DNA of 62,267 nucleotides, taken from positions 1 to 62,267 of the forward strand of contig JAFYRT010000015.1 of assembly GCA_017546805.1 (NCBI GenBank), read 5' to 3'. The translations under genes were made by a program, and so were the position numbers. Below, piece after piece: positions 3,525 through 61,601 of the stretch. This stretch comes from Muribaculaceae bacterium. GTDB taxonomy: Bacteria > Bacteroidota > Bacteroidia > Bacteroidales > G3-4614. The notes beneath the pieces are model-generated. The model saw nothing but the letters and a program-made list of their open reading frames with translations, was not told the DNA's origin and ran no database searches. Position 1 is the stretch's first letter. Every line of letters begins with the position of its first letter.

Positions 3525-4658
3525 ATGAAAAGAGAAGAAATTCCTTCACCCTCGTTTGTACTTGAAGAGGAGAAGTTTCGTAAAAACCTTGCACTCATTC
3601 GTTCGGTAAAAGAGCGAGCAGGAGTAGATATAATAATGGCATTCAAAGCATTTGCCCTTTGGAAAGTATTTGATGTGGTACGCGAATATATCCCTTATAC
3701 AACAGCAAGCTCGCTATCCGAAGCGCGTCTTGCATATGAGGAGATGAAGTCGTATGCACACACCTACGCACCAGTATATAGCAATGAGGAGTTTCCCGAA
3801 ATTCTCTCTTGCAGTAGCCATATAACATTTAACTCGCTAACCCAATACGAACATTTCCGTTCACAAATAGAGGTATCGGAGCGTCATATATCATGCGGTG
3901 TACGTATTAACCCTGAATATTCACAAGTCGAAACCGACCTTTACAACCCTTGTGCTCCCGGTTCACGTCTTGGAGTAACAGCTGATAAGATGAAACAGCT
4001 CCCCGAGGGTATCGAGGGATTGCATTGCCATACATTGTGTGAGTCCGACTCATATATGTTGGCAAACGTATTGGAGAAGGTTGAGGAGCGATTTGGACAT
4101 CTATTGCCTCAAATAAAGTGGTTGAATATGGGAGGAGGGCACTTAATGACTCGCGAGGGATATGATACTGAACACCTAATATTATTGCTTCAAAACTTCA
4201 AAGCAAAATACCCTAACTTGCAAATAATATTGGAGCCGGGCAGTGCCTTTGCTTGGCGAGCAGGATACCTAAAATCAACAATTCTTGACATTGTTGAGAA
4301 CCGAGGAATTCGTACCCTTATGCTAAACGTATCGTTTGCATGTCACATGCCCGACTGTTTGGAGATGCCTTACCGCCCCGAAGTGGTAGGAGCGCACGTC
4401 CCTCACGGTGGCGAAACAGTTTATCGTTTAGGTGGAAACTCTTGCCTTAGTGGCGACTTTGTAGGTGATTACGCCTTTGACAAGGAACCACAAATTGGCG
4501 ATACAATCATTCTGTGCGATATGATGCACTATACAACAGTTAAAACAACAATGTTCAACGGAGTGTCGCATCCATCAATCGTGTGGGAAGCCGAAGACGG
4601 AACAGCAACCATACTCCGCCAATTCGGTTACGAGGATTATAAAAATAGAATGAGTTGA
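3525..4658 (+). CDS. nspC: Carboxynorspermidine/carboxyspermidine decarboxylase
   Basis: PLP-dependent, alanine-racemase-fold (group IV) decarboxylase that removes CO2 from carboxyspermidine or carboxynorspermidine in the alternative polyamine pathway used by Bacteroidetes. In 377 residues it shows the Schiff-base lysine K41 in IIMAFKAFALW, the LHCHTLCE strand, the GGGHLMTREGYD phosphate-binding loop, LEPGSAFAW, and the catalytic cysteine in GGNSCLSGDFVGDY. Its start (ATG at 3525) follows an AT-rich stretch with no clear SD, as is common in this phylum. The partner carboxyspermidine dehydrogenase is not in the window. Substrate chain length cannot be told from sequence; spermidine is likely. 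Confidence 0.93.
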   Translation: MKREEIPSPSFVLEEEKFRKNLALIRSVKERAGVDIIMAFKAFALWKVFDVVREYIPYTTASSLSEARLAYEEMKSYAHTYAPVYSNEEFPEILSCSSHITFNSLTQYEHFRSQIEVSERHISCGVRINPEYSQVETDLYNPCAPGSRLGVTADKMKQLPEGIEGLHCHTLCESDSYMLANVLEKVEERFGHLLPQIKWLNMGGGHLMTREGYDTEHLILLLQNFKAKYPNLQIILEPGSAFAWRAGYLKSTILDIVENRGIRTLMLNVSFACHMPDCLEMPYRPEVVGAHVPHGGETVYRLGGNSCLSGDFVGDYAFDKEPQIGDTIILCDMMHYTTVKTTMFNGVSHPSIVWEAEDGTATILRQFGYEDYKNRMS

Positions 4659-4757
4659 TTAATAGTTGTTAGTTTTTAGTTGTTAGTTGTCAGCAAACGA
4701 CTTTAATGACACTAAATACCTAATACAAGTAACACTCTCAGATAATAGATTGAACCT

Positions 4758-4788
4758 TTTGTTAAGCAAAAAAATATTAATACTTTTG
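4758..4788 (+). promoter_or_regulatory. Strong Bacteroidetes -33/-7 promoter
   Basis: TTTG at 4758-4761, a 19-nt spacer, and TACTTTTG at 4781-4788 match the -33/-7 consensus of Bacteroidetes primary-sigma promoters. Transcription would start near 4795 and run through structured RNA A toward the gene at 5160. Confidence 0.75.
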
Positions 4789-4904
4789 CAATAACAAGAA
4801 TATACAAATTATGAATTAATTACTAATTACTAATTTCTAATTGTGGCTTTAGTCACGAACTAATTAATATAGATTGCCTATGAAACATTAGCGTATAGTT
4901 GATA

Positions 4905-5159: not shown

Positions 5160-5663
5160 ATGCAAAAAAAATACACGAAACACATTTTGATGATGTTGTT
5201 GGTATTCATACCATTTATAGGCATTAAAGCCACTGACTATATGAATGTCTATCTTACATCGCAAGGCTCATTTCAATCTATCAATATAGATGAAATAGAC
5301 AAAATCACCTTCCCCTCTGAAGATGAAGTAAACATCACCATATCGGGTATGGCAACCCCAATGGCAATAGATAATATCGAAGTCATCACCTTTGGCAATA
5401 CCAATATCACCGCCATAGAGGAGAGTGAAGCCAAAGTTGCCGAAATAGATATAACCTACTTAAAAGAAAGCGGTGAGATAAAAGTAACCACACCCGAGGC
5501 AATCAATCTTGTACACCTATACAATATGCAAGGAGTATTGATGCAAACACAAGCACCAAATACCACAGTTGCAACACTCAATGTAGGCGGCTGTCCAAGT
5601 GGAATATATATAGTAGCAGTACAATCAAACGGAAAAACAGAGATAAAGAAGATTATAAAATAG
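5160..5663 (+). CDS. Small secreted protein with a T9SS C-terminal sorting domain
   Basis: The 167 residues begin with a signal peptide (hydrophobic MMLLVFIPFIGI core, likely cleaved near residue 25), followed by a short segment with the Bacteroidetes motif VYLTSQGSFQSINIDEIDKI, the same DID/DSIxF-type motif as in the next gene. The last ~65 residues (LVHLYNMQGVLMQ, then PSGIYIVAVQSNGK and a lysine-rich end) are a type A T9SS sorting domain that directs export across the outer membrane. There is no large cargo domain between signal and tail, which is odd; it may be a small surface protein or a remnant. The hairpin GAGGAAC-ATTC-GTTCCTC at 5666-5683 follows. It is probably transcribed from the promoter at 4758 through RNA A. 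Molecular function unknown. Confidence 0.8.
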   Translation: MQKKYTKHILMMLLVFIPFIGIKATDYMNVYLTSQGSFQSINIDEIDKITFPSEDEVNITISGMATPMAIDNIEVITFGNTNITAIEESEAKVAEIDITYLKESGEIKVTTPEAINLVHLYNMQGVLMQTQAPNTTVATLNVGGCPSGIYIVAVQSNGKTEIKKIIK

Positions 5664-5737: not shown

Positions 5738-5871
5738 TGCGGCTTTGTTAGTTTTTAGTTGTACGGTACTTCGTACCTTAGTTTTTAGCAAATAAAGACT
5801 CTAACAACTAACAACTACCCGCAGGGCGGCAGAGTTTTGCGATGCCGACAACAAACAACTCAAAAAAAAGA

Positions 5872-6645
5872 ATGATGAAAACAAGACTAATCACATTGCT
5901 AATAGCAATAACAACTATAATAGGTAGTGCTTATGCACAAAAGAAAATAGAAGTATATAAAAATGGAGAAGTAGTATATAGTGAATATATTACAGATATA
6001 GATAGTATAAAATTTAAAGAGCAAACAGCGCCTCTGCCCAATACCGAAAACGGACACGAATATGTTGATCTTGGATTGCCTTCAGGAATTAAATGGGCAA
6101 CCTGTAATGTGGGAGCAAATTCACCCGAGGAGTATGGCGATTACTTTGCATGGGGCGAAACCGAGCCAAAAGATTATTATTCTTGGAGTACCTACAAATA
6201 TTGTAATGGTTCATATGATACAATAACCAAATATTGTACAAATTCAAAATATGGCACAGTAGATAATAAAACAACCCTTGAACTCTCAGACGATGCTGCT
6301 CGTGTAAATTGGGGAGGCAGTTGGCGCATGCCAACAAGAGCAGAACAAGATGAATTAGAAAATACCTCAAATTGTACATGGATATGGACCACACAAAACG
6401 GAGTAAAAGGATATAAGGTAACAAGCGTAAAGAACGGTAACTCCATATTTCTTCCTGCGGCGGGCCTTCTCGGCGGCGACGATCTCGACGTTGCAGGCGA
6501 CCTCGGCCGCTTCTGGTTGAATTCGCTCGACCCGACCCCGAACCGCTGCTACAACGCCTCCAACATGGCCTTCAATTCGTTCAACGCGTCCGGGACCTAC
6601 GAATACCGTTACTACAGGCGGTCTGTCCGCGCAGTCTGCGAGTAG
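5872..6645 (+). CDS. FISUMP-like secreted protein with a DGR-type variable C-terminus
   Basis: Signal peptide (MKTRLITLLIAITTIIGSAYAQ), then a KIEVYKNGEVVYSEYITDID motif segment, then a Fibrobacter-paralogous (FISUMP-like) domain beginning HEYVDLGLPSGIKWATCNVG near residue 60. The final ~65 codons (from about 6452) are abruptly GC-rich: 6541-6600 is 34/60 G+C against 17/60 in 6181-6240 of the same gene. They end in SVRAVCE, as does the protein at 59175-61601. FISUMP and C-type-lectin folds are common targets of diversity-generating retroelements in Bacteroidetes, and this C-terminus behaves like a variable repeat. An in-frame ATG at 5842 exists, but the signal peptide begins at the ATG pair 5872/5875, so I use 5872. 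Probable role is display of a binding surface; the ligand is unknown. Confidence 0.82.
   Translation: MMKTRLITLLIAITTIIGSAYAQKKIEVYKNGEVVYSEYITDIDSIKFKEQTAPLPNTENGHEYVDLGLPSGIKWATCNVGANSPEEYGDYFAWGETEPKDYYSWSTYKYCNGSYDTITKYCTNSKYGTVDNKTTLELSDDAARVNWGGSWRMPTRAEQDELENTSNCTWIWTTQNGVKGYKVTSVKNGNSIFLPAAGLLGGDDLDVAGDLGRFWLNSLDPTPNRCYNASNMAFNSFNASGTYEYRYYRRSVRAVCE
6452..6645 (+). repeat. Putative DGR variable repeat, copy 1
   Basis: Codons from CTTCCTGCGGCGGGC to the stop align with 61413-61601 except for a two-codon length difference near the middle. Many mismatched codon pairs differ at positions 1 and 2 and share a third-base pyrimidine (CTT/TAT, CTC/CGC, GGC/TAC, GAT/AAT, CTC/TAC, CGC/TAC, TTC/TAC). 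That is expected if a template rich in AAC/AAT codons was mutated at adenines. The 3' end (TCTGTCCGCGCAGT) is nearly invariant, fitting the conserved initiation segment of DGRs. Confidence 0.65.
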
Positions 6646-7073
6646 AAATTAAACATGTTTAATTTCAGTTGAGGAACATTCGTTCCTCGAACCTGCTCAT
6701 GCTCGGTAGTGCTTAAATAAATTTATCATTACTCTCGCTTATTCGCAGATTTGTTAGTTGAACGAGGGTGATTCTTTTGATACTTTTGTGTCATACTTAT
6801 TAGCCTAAATGCTCTAATAAGACCTAATGACTCAATTGACCTTATAATCCTGATTGTCTTCTTAAAAGATAATTTTATATGATAATACACAAAAAACCAT
6901 TGCTTTTTATGGCAATGGTTTTTTCATAACTACCAATAAAAATTTATATAATTCGCTATTAACTATATTAATAAGCCTATCTTTGTTGATTTTGCTCTCG
7001 CCAACAATGCACAAATAAATGCATTGTATTCGCTTAATCACAAAATTCCTAATTTCTAATTCCTCATTCCTAA
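6646..7073. other. Intergenic region of repeats and a terminator
   Basis: It holds the hairpin GAGGAAC/GTTCCTC (6671-6688) with the dispersed CTGCTC..CTCTCGCTTATTCGCAG repeat, a bidirectional terminator (6891-6924), another diverged repeat copy (7000-7040), and a TAATTCCTAATTTC-type repeat (7041-7076) directly after the recA stop. I see no gene. Confidence 0.65.
6891..6924. terminator. Bidirectional intrinsic terminator
   Basis: ACCATTGC (6896-6903) and GCAATGGT (6912-6919) form a stem with A-run and T-run on either side. It separates the converging FISUMP-like gene and recA. Confidence 0.8.
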
Positions 7074-7076
7074 TTA
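7041..7076 (-). repeat. AATTAGGAATTAGAAATTAGG repeat after recA
   Basis: On the minus strand the recA stop codon is followed at once by tandem units of AATTAGGAA and AATTAGAAA. Similar tracts follow the genes ending at 8339 (-), 51667 (+), 51756 (-) and 61601 (+), and one lies next to 32551-32583. The tract is built of ~10-nt units and is non-coding. Confidence 0.7.
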
Positions 7077-8093
7077 TTTTTTTATCGCCTCCATAATCAA
7101 ACCTTCCAACTCCTCTGCAAGTTCGGGATTATCCATAACCATACGTTTTGCAGCGTCGCGTCCTTGACCAAGTTTAGTGTCGCCGTAAGCAAACCAAGAA
7201 CCGCTTTTCTTAATAATACCATACTCAACACCAAGGTCAATTATCTCTCCCGATTTAGAGATACCTTCGCCAAACATAATGTCGAACTCTGCTTTGCGGA
7301 ATGGGGGAGCAACTTTGTTCTTAACAATTTTAACACGAGTTTGGTTACCAATAACATCCTCGCCATCTTTAATTTGAGATACTCTGCGAATGTCTATACG
7401 AACTGAAGAGTAGAACTTCAATGCGTTACCACCTGTTGTAGTTTCGGGGTTACCGAACATAACACCAATTTTTTCGCGCAATTGGTTGATGAATATACAA
7501 GTTGTGTTTGTTTTGCTGATTGTTGAAGTAAGTTTACGCAAAGCCTGGCTCATCAAGCGAGCTTGCAAACCTACGCGGTTGTCGCCCATATCACCCTCCA
7601 ACTCTGCTTTAGGAGTAAGAGCCGCAACAGAGTCAATAACAACAATGTCAACTGCCGACGATCTGATTAGTTGGTCGGCAATCTCCAATGCTTGCTCTCC
7701 ACTGTCGGGCTGAGAAATCCAAAGATTTTCAACGTCAACACCAAGTTTTTCGGCATAGAAACGGTCGAATGCATGCTCAGCGTCAATGATTGCTGCAATA
7801 CCACCATTTTTTTGAGCTTCGGCAATGGCGTGGATGGCCAATGTTGTTTTACCTGATGATTCGGGACCATATATTTCAATAACTCTTCCTCTTGGATAAC
7901 CTCCAACGCCAAGTGCGGCGTTGAGAGCAATTGAACCTGTTGATATAACGGCAACCTCTTCAACCATATCGTCGCCAAGTTTCATGATAGAACCTTTTCC
8001 GTAGCTTTTCTCAATTTTGTCCATTGCTGCTCTAAGAGCTTTAAGTTTATCCTCAGAGACTGTAACTTTTACTTTTTTCTCTTCGCTTTCCAT
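7074..8093 (-). CDS. recA: Recombinase RecA
   Basis: DNA-dependent ATPase that forms filaments on single-stranded DNA for homologous recombination and SOS induction. The 339 residues have the N-terminal helix, Walker [10 protein letters not shown] at 76-84, the Walker B strand ([16 protein letters not shown]), the L2-proximal [19 protein letters not shown] and the usual acidic C-terminus. ATG start at 8093; the N-terminus aligns with normal RecA after a short lysine-rich lead. It is monocistronic. Its stop lies against a repeat tract and the terminator at 6891-6924 lies beyond. I saw no obvious SOS box upstream, but did not search systematically. Confidence 0.98.
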
Positions 8094-8215: not shown

Positions 8216-8340
8216 TTTTAATTAGAAATGAGGTATTAGTACGTTGCTTAAGCAATAATTAGTTCGCGACTTTGTCGCAATTAGAAATTAATTGATAATA
8301 AAAAAATCATTCCTAATTTCTAATTCCTAATTCCTAATTT
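8216..8340 (-). repeat. Composite post-gene repeat after the 8339 gene
   Basis: Read on the minus strand, the stop is followed by four AATTAGGAA/AATTAGAAA units, a spacer, and GCGACAAAGTCGC (a small hairpin) flanked by TTCTAATT and TTAGTTCG motifs. The same order, repeat-hairpin-repeat, is seen after the glycosyltransferase gene at 51664-51757 (GTGCTTCGCAC) and near 4842 (GTGGCTTTAGTCAC). Confidence 0.6.
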
Positions 8341-59174: not shown

Positions 59175-61601
59175 ATGAAACACAAACACTTATTAAAAAG
59201 CATACTGTCAGTAATGCTGATAACATTAACTACAGTAATATCAATATTTATAACCTCATGTGCCGAGGAGGAAGAAAACAAATCAAATACAACCCCATCT
59301 GTGTGCAAAGTCTCAGTAATTAGCGGAGAGGGCGGAACAGCAAAAACATCTGAAACAGAATTAATACCCGGTTGGGAGGTAACCATAACCGCAACACCCG
59401 AAGAGACCTACCGTTTTGTAAACTGGACAGTAGGCGGGAAAGAGGTATCAAAAGAAAACCCATATACAATAGCGATAAACCAAAATACACAATTTAAAGC
59501 CAATTTTGAGAAAGATAACTACACCCTCAAAGTAACCGCGGGCGAGGGAGGTGTTGTAAAAGCATCACAAGAGGGCATTGTGTTAAACGGAACAAAAGTC
59601 ACTCTTACTGCTACTCCAAAAGAAGGCTATGGTTTTGTAAATTGGACAGTAAACGGAGAAGAGGTATCAAAAGAAAACCCCTACACAGTAACAATAACAA
59701 ACGACATAGAGTATGTCGCCAACTTCATAACCCATAAAGTAACCGTAATAGCAGGTGAAGGCGGTACAGCCGAAACATCAAAAACACAAGCAGGACATAA
59801 CGAACAAGTAACCCTTACAGCCACTCCCAATGATGGCTACAGCTTTGTCAATTGGACAGTAAACGGAGAAGAAGTATCAAAAGAAAACCCCTACACAGTA
59901 ACCGTAACAAAAGATGTAGAGTATATTGCTAACTTCATAACCCATAAAGTAACTGTAATAGCAGGTGAAGGTGGTACAGCCACAGTCTCAAAAACACAAG
60001 CAGGACATAATGAACAAGTCACTCTTACTGCTACTCCCAACGAAGGCTATAGTTTTGTAAATTGGACAGTAAACGGCGAGGAGGTATCTACATCTGCAAC
60101 ATACACAGTAACCGTAACAAAAGATGTAGAGTATGTCGCTAATTTTATCAGTTATAAAGTAACAGTATTGTCAGGCGAAGGTGGAACAGCCACAGCAAAT
60201 AAAACACAAGTAGGATATAACGGGCAAGTCACCCTCACTGCCACACCCAACGACGGTTATGGTTTTGTTAATTGGACAGTCAACGGAGAGGAAGTATCAA
60301 CCGCGAACCCATATACAGCGACAATAACAGCAAATACAGAGTTTAAAGCCAACTTTATCAGTTATAAAGTATCTGTAATAACAGGTGAGGGCGGAACGGC
60401 TACGGCAAATAAAACACAAGTATCCCCTAACGGACAAGTAACCCTCACCGCCATGCCAAAAGAAGGCTATAGCTTTGTCAATTGGATAGTGGACGGAGTT
60501 GAGGTTTCAAGACAAGCAACATACACCGCAACAATAACAGCAGATACAGAATTTAAAGCCAATTTTATCAGTTATAAAGTAACAGTATTGTCAGGCGAAG
60601 GCGGAACTGCTACAGCAAATAAAGCACAAGTAGGCTATAACGAACAAGTGACCCTCACCGCTACCCCTAACGATGGCTATAGCTTTGTCAATTGGACAGT
60701 AAACGGCGAGGAAGTATCAACATCTGCAACATATACCGCAACAATAACAGCAGATACAGAATTTAAAGCCAACTTTATTAGTTATAAAGTAACCGTAGTA
60801 TCAGGCGAAGGCGGAACCGCCAAAGTGGATAAAACGCAATTAGCACATAACGGACAAGTAACCCTCACCGCCACACCTGAAGAAGATTACTTCTTTGTCA
60901 ATTGGACAGTAAACGGAGAGGAGATATCAACATCTGCAACATATACCGCAACAATAACAGCAGATACAGAATTTAAAGCTAATTTTAGAGAAACATATAA
61001 ACCTACAGGATTAGAAAATGGAAAAGGTTTTGTAGAACTCGGTTTGCCAAGTGGACTAAAATGGGCAACATGCAATGTGGGAGCAACCACACCCGAAGGT
61101 TACGGCGATTACTTTGCTTGGGGCGAGACAGAACCAAAAGACTACTACGATTGGAGCACCTACAAATATTGTAATGGTTCTTCATCAACAATGACCAAAT
61201 ACTATACAAAATCAAGTTATGGCACAGTAGATAATAAAACCACCCTTGAACTCGCGGACGATGCCGCGCATGTAAATTGGGGAGGTAATTGGCGAATGCC
61301 AACAATTGAAGAACAAAAAGAGTTATTGAATAATTGCACTTGGACATGGACAACACAAAACGGAGTAAACGGGTGTAAAGTAACAAGTAAAAGGAACGGT
61401 AACTCCATTTTTCTTCCTGCTGCGGGCTATCGCTACGGCGACAATCTCGACAGTGCGGGCAGTTACGGCTACTACTGGTCGGGTTCGCTCGGCACGTACT
61501 ACAGCGACTACGCTTACCTCGTGTACTTCAGTTCGGACAGCGTAGGTTGGGAGTCCTACGACCGTTGCAGCGGGCAGTCTGTCCGCGCAGTATGCGAGTA
61601 G
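59175..61601 (+). CDS. Surface lipoprotein with eight InlB-type repeats and a DGR-type variable domain
   Basis: 808 residues. A lipoprotein signal (ISIFITSC, lipidation cysteine ~29, followed by acidic AEEEE) is typical of surface-exposed Bacteroidetes lipoproteins. Eight ~68-residue repeats (~43-615) carry the motif GEGGTA...TLTATP..GY.FVNWTVNGEEVS, as in divergent InlB/Listeria-Bacteroides repeats; they likely form a stalk. The final domain (from GKGFVELGLPSGLKWATCNV, ~615) is FISUMP-like, shared with the protein ending at 6645, and its last ~65 codons are GC-rich and hypervariable, ending SVRAVCE. The layout is of a variable-tip adhesin diversified by a retroelement in trans. The next upstream gene, a PD-(D/E)XK-like protein, is 2 bp away. 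Confidence 0.85.
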   Translation: MKHKHLLKSILSVMLITLTTVISIFITSCAEEEENKSNTTPSVCKVSVISGEGGTAKTSETELIPGWEVTITATPEETYRFVNWTVGGKEVSKENPYTIAINQNTQFKANFEKDNYTLKVTAGEGGVVKASQEGIVLNGTKVTLTATPKEGYGFVNWTVNGEEVSKENPYTVTITNDIEYVANFITHKVTVIAGEGGTAETSKTQAGHNEQVTLTATPNDGYSFVNWTVNGEEVSKENPYTVTVTKDVEYIANFITHKVTVIAGEGGTATVSKTQAGHNEQVTLTATPNEGYSFVNWTVNGEEVSTSATYTVTVTKDVEYVANFISYKVTVLSGEGGTATANKTQVGYNGQVTLTATPNDGYGFVNWTVNGEEVSTANPYTATITANTEFKANFISYKVSVITGEGGTATANKTQVSPNGQVTLTAMPKEGYSFVNWIVDGVEVSRQATYTATITADTEFKANFISYKVTVLSGEGGTATANKAQVGYNEQVTLTATPNDGYSFVNWTVNGEEVSTSATYTATITADTEFKANFISYKVTVVSGEGGTAKVDKTQLAHNGQVTLTATPEEDYFFVNWTVNGEEISTSATYTATITADTEFKANFRETYKPTGLENGKGFVELGLPSGLKWATCNVGATTPEGYGDYFAWGETEPKDYYDWSTYKYCNGSSSTMTKYYTKSSYGTVDNKTTLELADDAAHVNWGGNWRMPTIEEQKELLNNCTWTWTTQNGVNGCKVTSKRNGNSIFLPAAGYRYGDNLDSAGSYGYYWSGSLGTYYSDYAYLVYFSSDSVGWESYDRCSGQSVRAVCE
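59300..60990 (+). repeat. Tandem ~204-bp repeats (x8) in the lipoprotein gene
   Basis: Eight copies, with long near-identical stretches between copies (for example around 60151 and 60571). Copy number could change by slipped recombination. Confidence 0.8.
61413..61601 (+). repeat. Putative DGR variable repeat, copy 2
   Basis: In-frame with the lipoprotein. It begins CTTCCTGCTGCGGGC and ends TCTGTCCGCGCAGT. Compare copy 1 at 6452-6645. Confidence 0.65.

Follow-up and report, generated by a model that had tools for sequence, protein, structure and literature searches.

A GC-rich gene end in a Bacteroidales genome as one of 17 dispersed DGR variable repeats, with the retroelement found in sister species

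The gene at 5842-6645 in the window, by which we mean the whole 62,267-nucleotide stretch of DNA analysed, raises the question of why the 3′ end of a coding sequence should be so much richer in GC than the rest of it, and whether this end is a repeat rewritten by a DGR, as the first-pass annotation had proposed. At this end of the window we recognise the following:

5160..5663, + strand: upstream neighbour, encoding 167 aa, to which a profile match assigns a Por_Secre_tail domain (type IX secretion).
5842..6645, + strand: target gene for a secreted FISUMP/Lcl_C-type protein of 267 aa, from the ORF, the profiles of aligned relatives and a structure model.
6448..6642, + strand: DGR variable repeat (VR), codons FLPAAG...SVRAVCE, assigned from adenine-directed mismatches to the template of sister genome G006.

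The target gene, whose real start is likely 5872 or 5875 with the signal peptide MMKTRLITLL, remains open in frame through its GC-rich end to a TAG at 6643-6645, as had been noted, and the G+C counts given earlier (34/60 in 6541-6600, 17/60 in 6181-6240) are exact. GC content is 36.1% in the gene body (5842-6447) and 61.6% in 6448-6645, against a window mean of 37.5%. The highest value for any 195 bp in the 62-kb window, 62.6%, falls at 6451, and the only other spot of at least 59%, at 61416, lies inside a second VR. A FISUMP-domain paralogue on contig C5 that carries no VR has a tail of just 37% GC, which indicates that the GC-rich tail tracks the VR and not the fold.

The label FISUMP-like, which the gene had been given from the outset, holds at the level of the family: in a profile search with 18 aligned relatives (E<=0.01), 15 matched Lcl_C and 7 matched TIGR02145 FISUMP, whereas the window protein alone matched neither. 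Both Lcl_C/DUF1566 and FISUMP are known DGR target domains in gut Bacteroidales and have been reported to be mutually similar (PMC4159848, PMC8143477). The structure model of the target protein has a mean pLDDT of 85.8; Foldseek returned no significant match for it, the weak ones including the Legionella Lcl C-terminal domain (prob 0.35, E 0.4), and sequence searches of the PDB likewise yielded none. A small protein gene precedes the FISUMP target here (5160-5663), where this copy bears the type IX secretion tail, and a similar one does so in the cassette of sister genome G002 (L088 10690-11199), the chromosomal sites being unrelated. Certain AT-rich intergenic phrases, e.g. TTAGTTTTTAGTTGTTAG and TAATTTCTAATTCCTAATT, recur in the window at 4640-4850, 5740-5830, 7050-7080 and 8220-8340, and resemble a family of repeats scattered through this genome.

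A template sequence was predicted from the repeats of this genome alone, by setting their variable positions to A, and was then searched in sister genomes. The prediction led to a real non-coding sequence in G006, 93% identical over 189 bases, with an accessory gene on one side and, on the other, the start of a reverse transcriptase (RT) gene truncated by the contig end. Relative to this template, the window VR carries a 6-base in-frame insertion and is mismatched at 34/57 adenines and 20/132 other bases (Fisher p=1.7e-9), an adenine bias that was reached in 0/20000 codon-position-matched permutations. Homology to the template begins at about 6446-6448, placing the first-pass start of 6452 within 4-6 bases of the boundary. 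Near the far end of the window lie a second target and its repeat:

59175..61601, + strand: second target gene; its product, lipoprotein-like and 808 aa long, carries repeated InlB-B-type units and a C-terminus of the FISUMP/Lcl_C type.
61410..61598, + strand: second VR, differing from the template at 31/57 adenines vs 10/132 other bases (p 6.8e-12).

When the 17 repeats of the genome are compared with the G006 template, 477/921 adenines (52%) and 242/2154 other bases (11%) differ. At the 21 AAY codons of the template, the repeats differ pairwise by 0.65/0.57/0.17 at the three codon positions, the reverse of what these genes show upstream of the repeat (0.10/0.12/0.37). With mismatches clustering at template adenines, and with a template, an RT and an accessory gene all present in sister genomes, the earlier reading of the GC-rich end is borne out, and we consider 6448-6642 to be almost certainly a DGR variable repeat. 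Its 20/132 non-adenine changes, 12 of them at codon positions 1-2, exceed those of most copies, so that some of the divergence is due to ordinary drift or to a second template.

Ordinary diversifying selection together with recombination between paralogues might also vary the C-termini of a large, surface-exposed family (~24 FISUMP-type domains) with no DGR involved. However, such processes do not lead one to expect changes clustered at adenine positions of a real sister-genome template, or codons that keep their third positions while positions 1-2 become near random, and gene conversion would homogenise the adenine sites as well; this explanation is therefore very improbable. A compositional artefact, or a 3′ domain gained by horizontal transfer, as the step from 36% GC in the remainder of the gene to 62% might bring to mind, is just as improbable, since the high GC content of the VRs is explained by a 50% GC template whose adenines are replaced mostly by G and T. 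The same composition is found in the 17 repeats and not in the paralogue without a VR, and the common template skeleton is present.

The genome from which the window derives (G000) is a Bacteroidales assembly of 2.1 Mb in 75 contigs, 96.6% complete. All 17 of its VR-like places lie in frame inside FISUMP-domain ORFs, which rules out each of them as the template; its FISUMP-type domains number ~24, so that several are without a VR. The front parts of the target proteins vary, with InlB-B-type repeats, an FGE-sulfatase domain, and lipoprotein or plain signal peptides, while the C-terminal domain common to these proteins is Lcl_C/DUF1566 and FISUMP at the family level. In the 16/17 VRs that are not cut short by a contig end the frame is open through SVRAVC, and 3 of these 16 (the first copy on C48, the first copy on C43, and that on C36) are internal to longer ORFs rather than ORF-terminal. 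The aligned repeats have a common fixed skeleton with NNC/NNT codons, and their fixed non-adenine bases divide them into two groups (GCT/GCG at codon 4, GCG/GCA at codon 16 and mostly GTA/GTG at codon 45; at codon 18 one group has AGT and the other mostly different codons). This division suggests that there may have been two template alleles; the window VR sits in the second group and is among the more drifted copies. Because even the closest pair of full-length VRs is at least 6/130 non-adenine columns apart, these repeats have not been rewritten recently from a single template.

The complete cassette of G002 consists of a target with a VR, a 187-aa accessory protein, the template and a 384-aa RT, whose motif IGNLTSQ fits the DGR pattern [ILV]GxxxSQ. 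The match of the accessory to MutS domain I is weak (best E 2e-5, 18 relatives), and the order of target, accessory, template region and RT is repeated in other Bacteroidales genomes and on IMG/VR contigs. A conserved accessory of ~185 aa with this weak MutS domain I match is found between target and template in chromosomal and viral Bacteroidales DGRs alike (L105-L127, e.g. L105:4031-4594). In G006, the cassette VR differs from its own template at 29/57 adenines and 0/132 other bases, and a VR on another contig at 27/57 and 1/132. The corresponding values in G002 are 20/54 and 0/135 for the cassette VR; of two distant VRs, one has 23/54 and 1/135, the other 22/54 and 1/135. Since nearly all differences of the cassette and distant VRs from the template of their own genome fall at adenines, a single template appears to serve targets in trans in each of these genomes, and both cassettes look active.

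None of this machinery was recovered from G000. Neither the RVT_1 profile nor a sister RT query (E<=1, no fragment) found a DGR RT, a sister accessory protein query gave no fragment at E<=1, and the predicted-template search found no template repeat. The site that adjoins tig and holds the cassette in G002 is intact and empty in G000, on one contig. The first-pass annotation had called for a search for an RT and a template and had named their absence from the genome as evidence against a variable repeat. The search fails in this assembly, which literally lacks both, and succeeds in the sister genomes, where mismatches fall mostly at adenines; the identity of the repeat stands, given its adenine signature and the machinery carried by congeneric genomes. 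A DGR currently at work in this genome is not supported.

Elsewhere in the genus, G003 and G004 also have repeats but no DGR-type RT, and G001 and G007 have neither. The RT that G004 does encode (445 aa) was rejected as a DGR enzyme, being of another type that lacks IGNLTSQ and is not matched by the DGR RT query; judged from its sequence only, this protein (L053 1309-2646, G004:C14) is retron-like in appearance. A broken cassette occurs in G005 (L090, G005:C43, 494-1721), in which codons 1 to 80 of the accessory gene have been fused by a deletion to RT sequence that starts at residue 36. This deletion took out the template repeat, and the RT match also has an in-frame TAA.

The retroelement is probably gone from G000, with the caveat that C43 ends inside its second VR and that repeats break assemblies, so that a cassette could reside in an unassembled piece. 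The corresponding alternative, that the species does have an active DGR whose cassette has fallen into an assembly or binning gap, is less likely, though it deserves to be taken seriously: many VRs lie near contig ends, a contig end also interrupts the RT of G006, and the completeness of G000 is below 100%. Nonetheless, not even a fragment of RT or accessory gene was detected at E<=1, the tig-side insertion site is empty, and the nearly complete G004 likewise has repeats (5) and no DGR-type RT. The full-length VRs of G000 are also at least 6 non-adenine changes apart, compared with the 0-1 that separate cassette-type VRs from their templates in the sister species. Rewriting in trans by a visiting DGR, borne by a phage or plasmid, is improbable. 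While IMG/VR contigs carry related cassettes with RTs 51-61% identical, every RT found on a viral contig was more distant than the chromosomal RTs of the genus (85% or more).

The sequence immediately downstream of the window VR has features of its own:

6645..6666, unstranded: perfect 22-base palindrome, GAAATTAAACATGTTTAATTTC, directly 3′ of the VR and overlapping the stop codon.
6671..6688, unstranded: second stem-loop, GAGGAACATTCGTTCCTC, which recurs after VRs of the same class.

A stop-overlapping palindrome follows about half of the G000 VRs and some sister VRs, its stem differing in sequence while the pairing is kept. The sister cassette VRs have no such palindrome and are followed instead by TAGTGTGCG... 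and, farther on, by a GC-rich hairpin. An attempt to treat the VR 3′ flanks as a single conserved element failed, since they fall into at least two classes. Non-adenine changes in G006 number 0-1 in the two VRs of cassette type and 4 and 14 in the two of palindrome type, a link between flank class and change count that is suggestive only. In the DGR of Bordetella phage BPP-1, where the 3′ VR is likewise followed by an inverted repeat with the potential to form a cruciform, this repeat is needed for efficient homing (PMC3240598), and the palindrome at 6645-6666 is possibly its cruciform or hairpin counterpart. Unlike the BPP-1 element, the window palindrome is AT-rich, overlaps the stop codon, has a putative role in homing and is absent after the sister cassette VRs.

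Taken as a whole, these results make it very probable that 6448-6642 is a VR written by a DGR of the sister type, as were 16 other dispersed FISUMP/Lcl_C domains. Such a DGR, composed of target, MutS-I-like accessory, template repeat and RT, would have copied a template RNA while misreading its adenines, and the mutagenised cDNA would have taken the place of the 3′ end of the target gene, the 16 other domains being rewritten in the same way. The outcome would be a secreted protein with a fixed scaffold and a diversified C-terminal face, which probably binds a ligand. This account draws on the adenine-directed divergence from a real template, on the 17 repeats and on the active-looking, apparently trans-acting cassette of two sister species; that the rewriting was done by a cassette of the organism's own lineage, since lost from G000 or unassembled in it, we infer.

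Cassettes with DUF1566/Fib_succ_major targets have been described in Bacteroidales, both in the Bacuni phages of Bacteroides uniformis (PMC8143477) and among human-microbiome DGRs (PMC4159848), and resemble the present system in the C-terminal position of the VR within a FISUMP/DUF1566 domain and in the order of target, accessory, template and RT seen in the sister species. In the Bacuni phages, too, one target is close to the RT and another lies at a distance, but the targets of G000 are chromosomal, dispersed and 17 in number, with the cassette absent from the assembly, and the sister accessory weakly matches MutS domain I, while that of Bacuni is annotated Avd. The partial DGRs of Nanoarchaeota, which comprise target, VR and cis elements and no RT, likewise show adenine-directed changes with no RT nearby, and were proposed by their authors to be fossils or to undergo remote diversification (PMC4372165). 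The copies here are far more numerous and belong to a bacterial genus in which sister species keep the cassette, so that these two readings can be compared. As in the multi-VR set of DiGReF (PMC3521204) and Thiohalocapsa PB-PSB1 (PMC10907252), paralogous targets lie far from the RT and depend on one template, alongside paralogues without a VR. The DiGReF table lists up to 4 repeats per DGR (PMC3521204), compared with 17 in this one genome, which has evidence of two template lineages and no RT found.

Multi-target DGRs, trans-acting DGRs and repeats without an RT are thus each known separately (PMC3521204, PMC10907252, PMC4372165). What is new is how many dispersed repeats occur here with no RT, together with a single genus in which the cassette is present, broken and absent. 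DGR surveys usually start from the RT and seek targets beside it, and therefore miss dispersed or orphaned targets, as PMC8144416 says of its own survey. Somewhat more tentatively than for the loss itself, we lean towards the view that 17 dispersed surface-protein domains were diversified in trans and have kept open frames after loss of the retroelement, as a frozen hypermutation repertoire in which at least two template alleles may still be read. Because the genus includes cassette-bearing, cassette-less and broken (G005) genomes in which repeats can be recognised, repeats under rewriting can be compared directly with those that have been released from it, and the number of distant genes served by one template can be counted.
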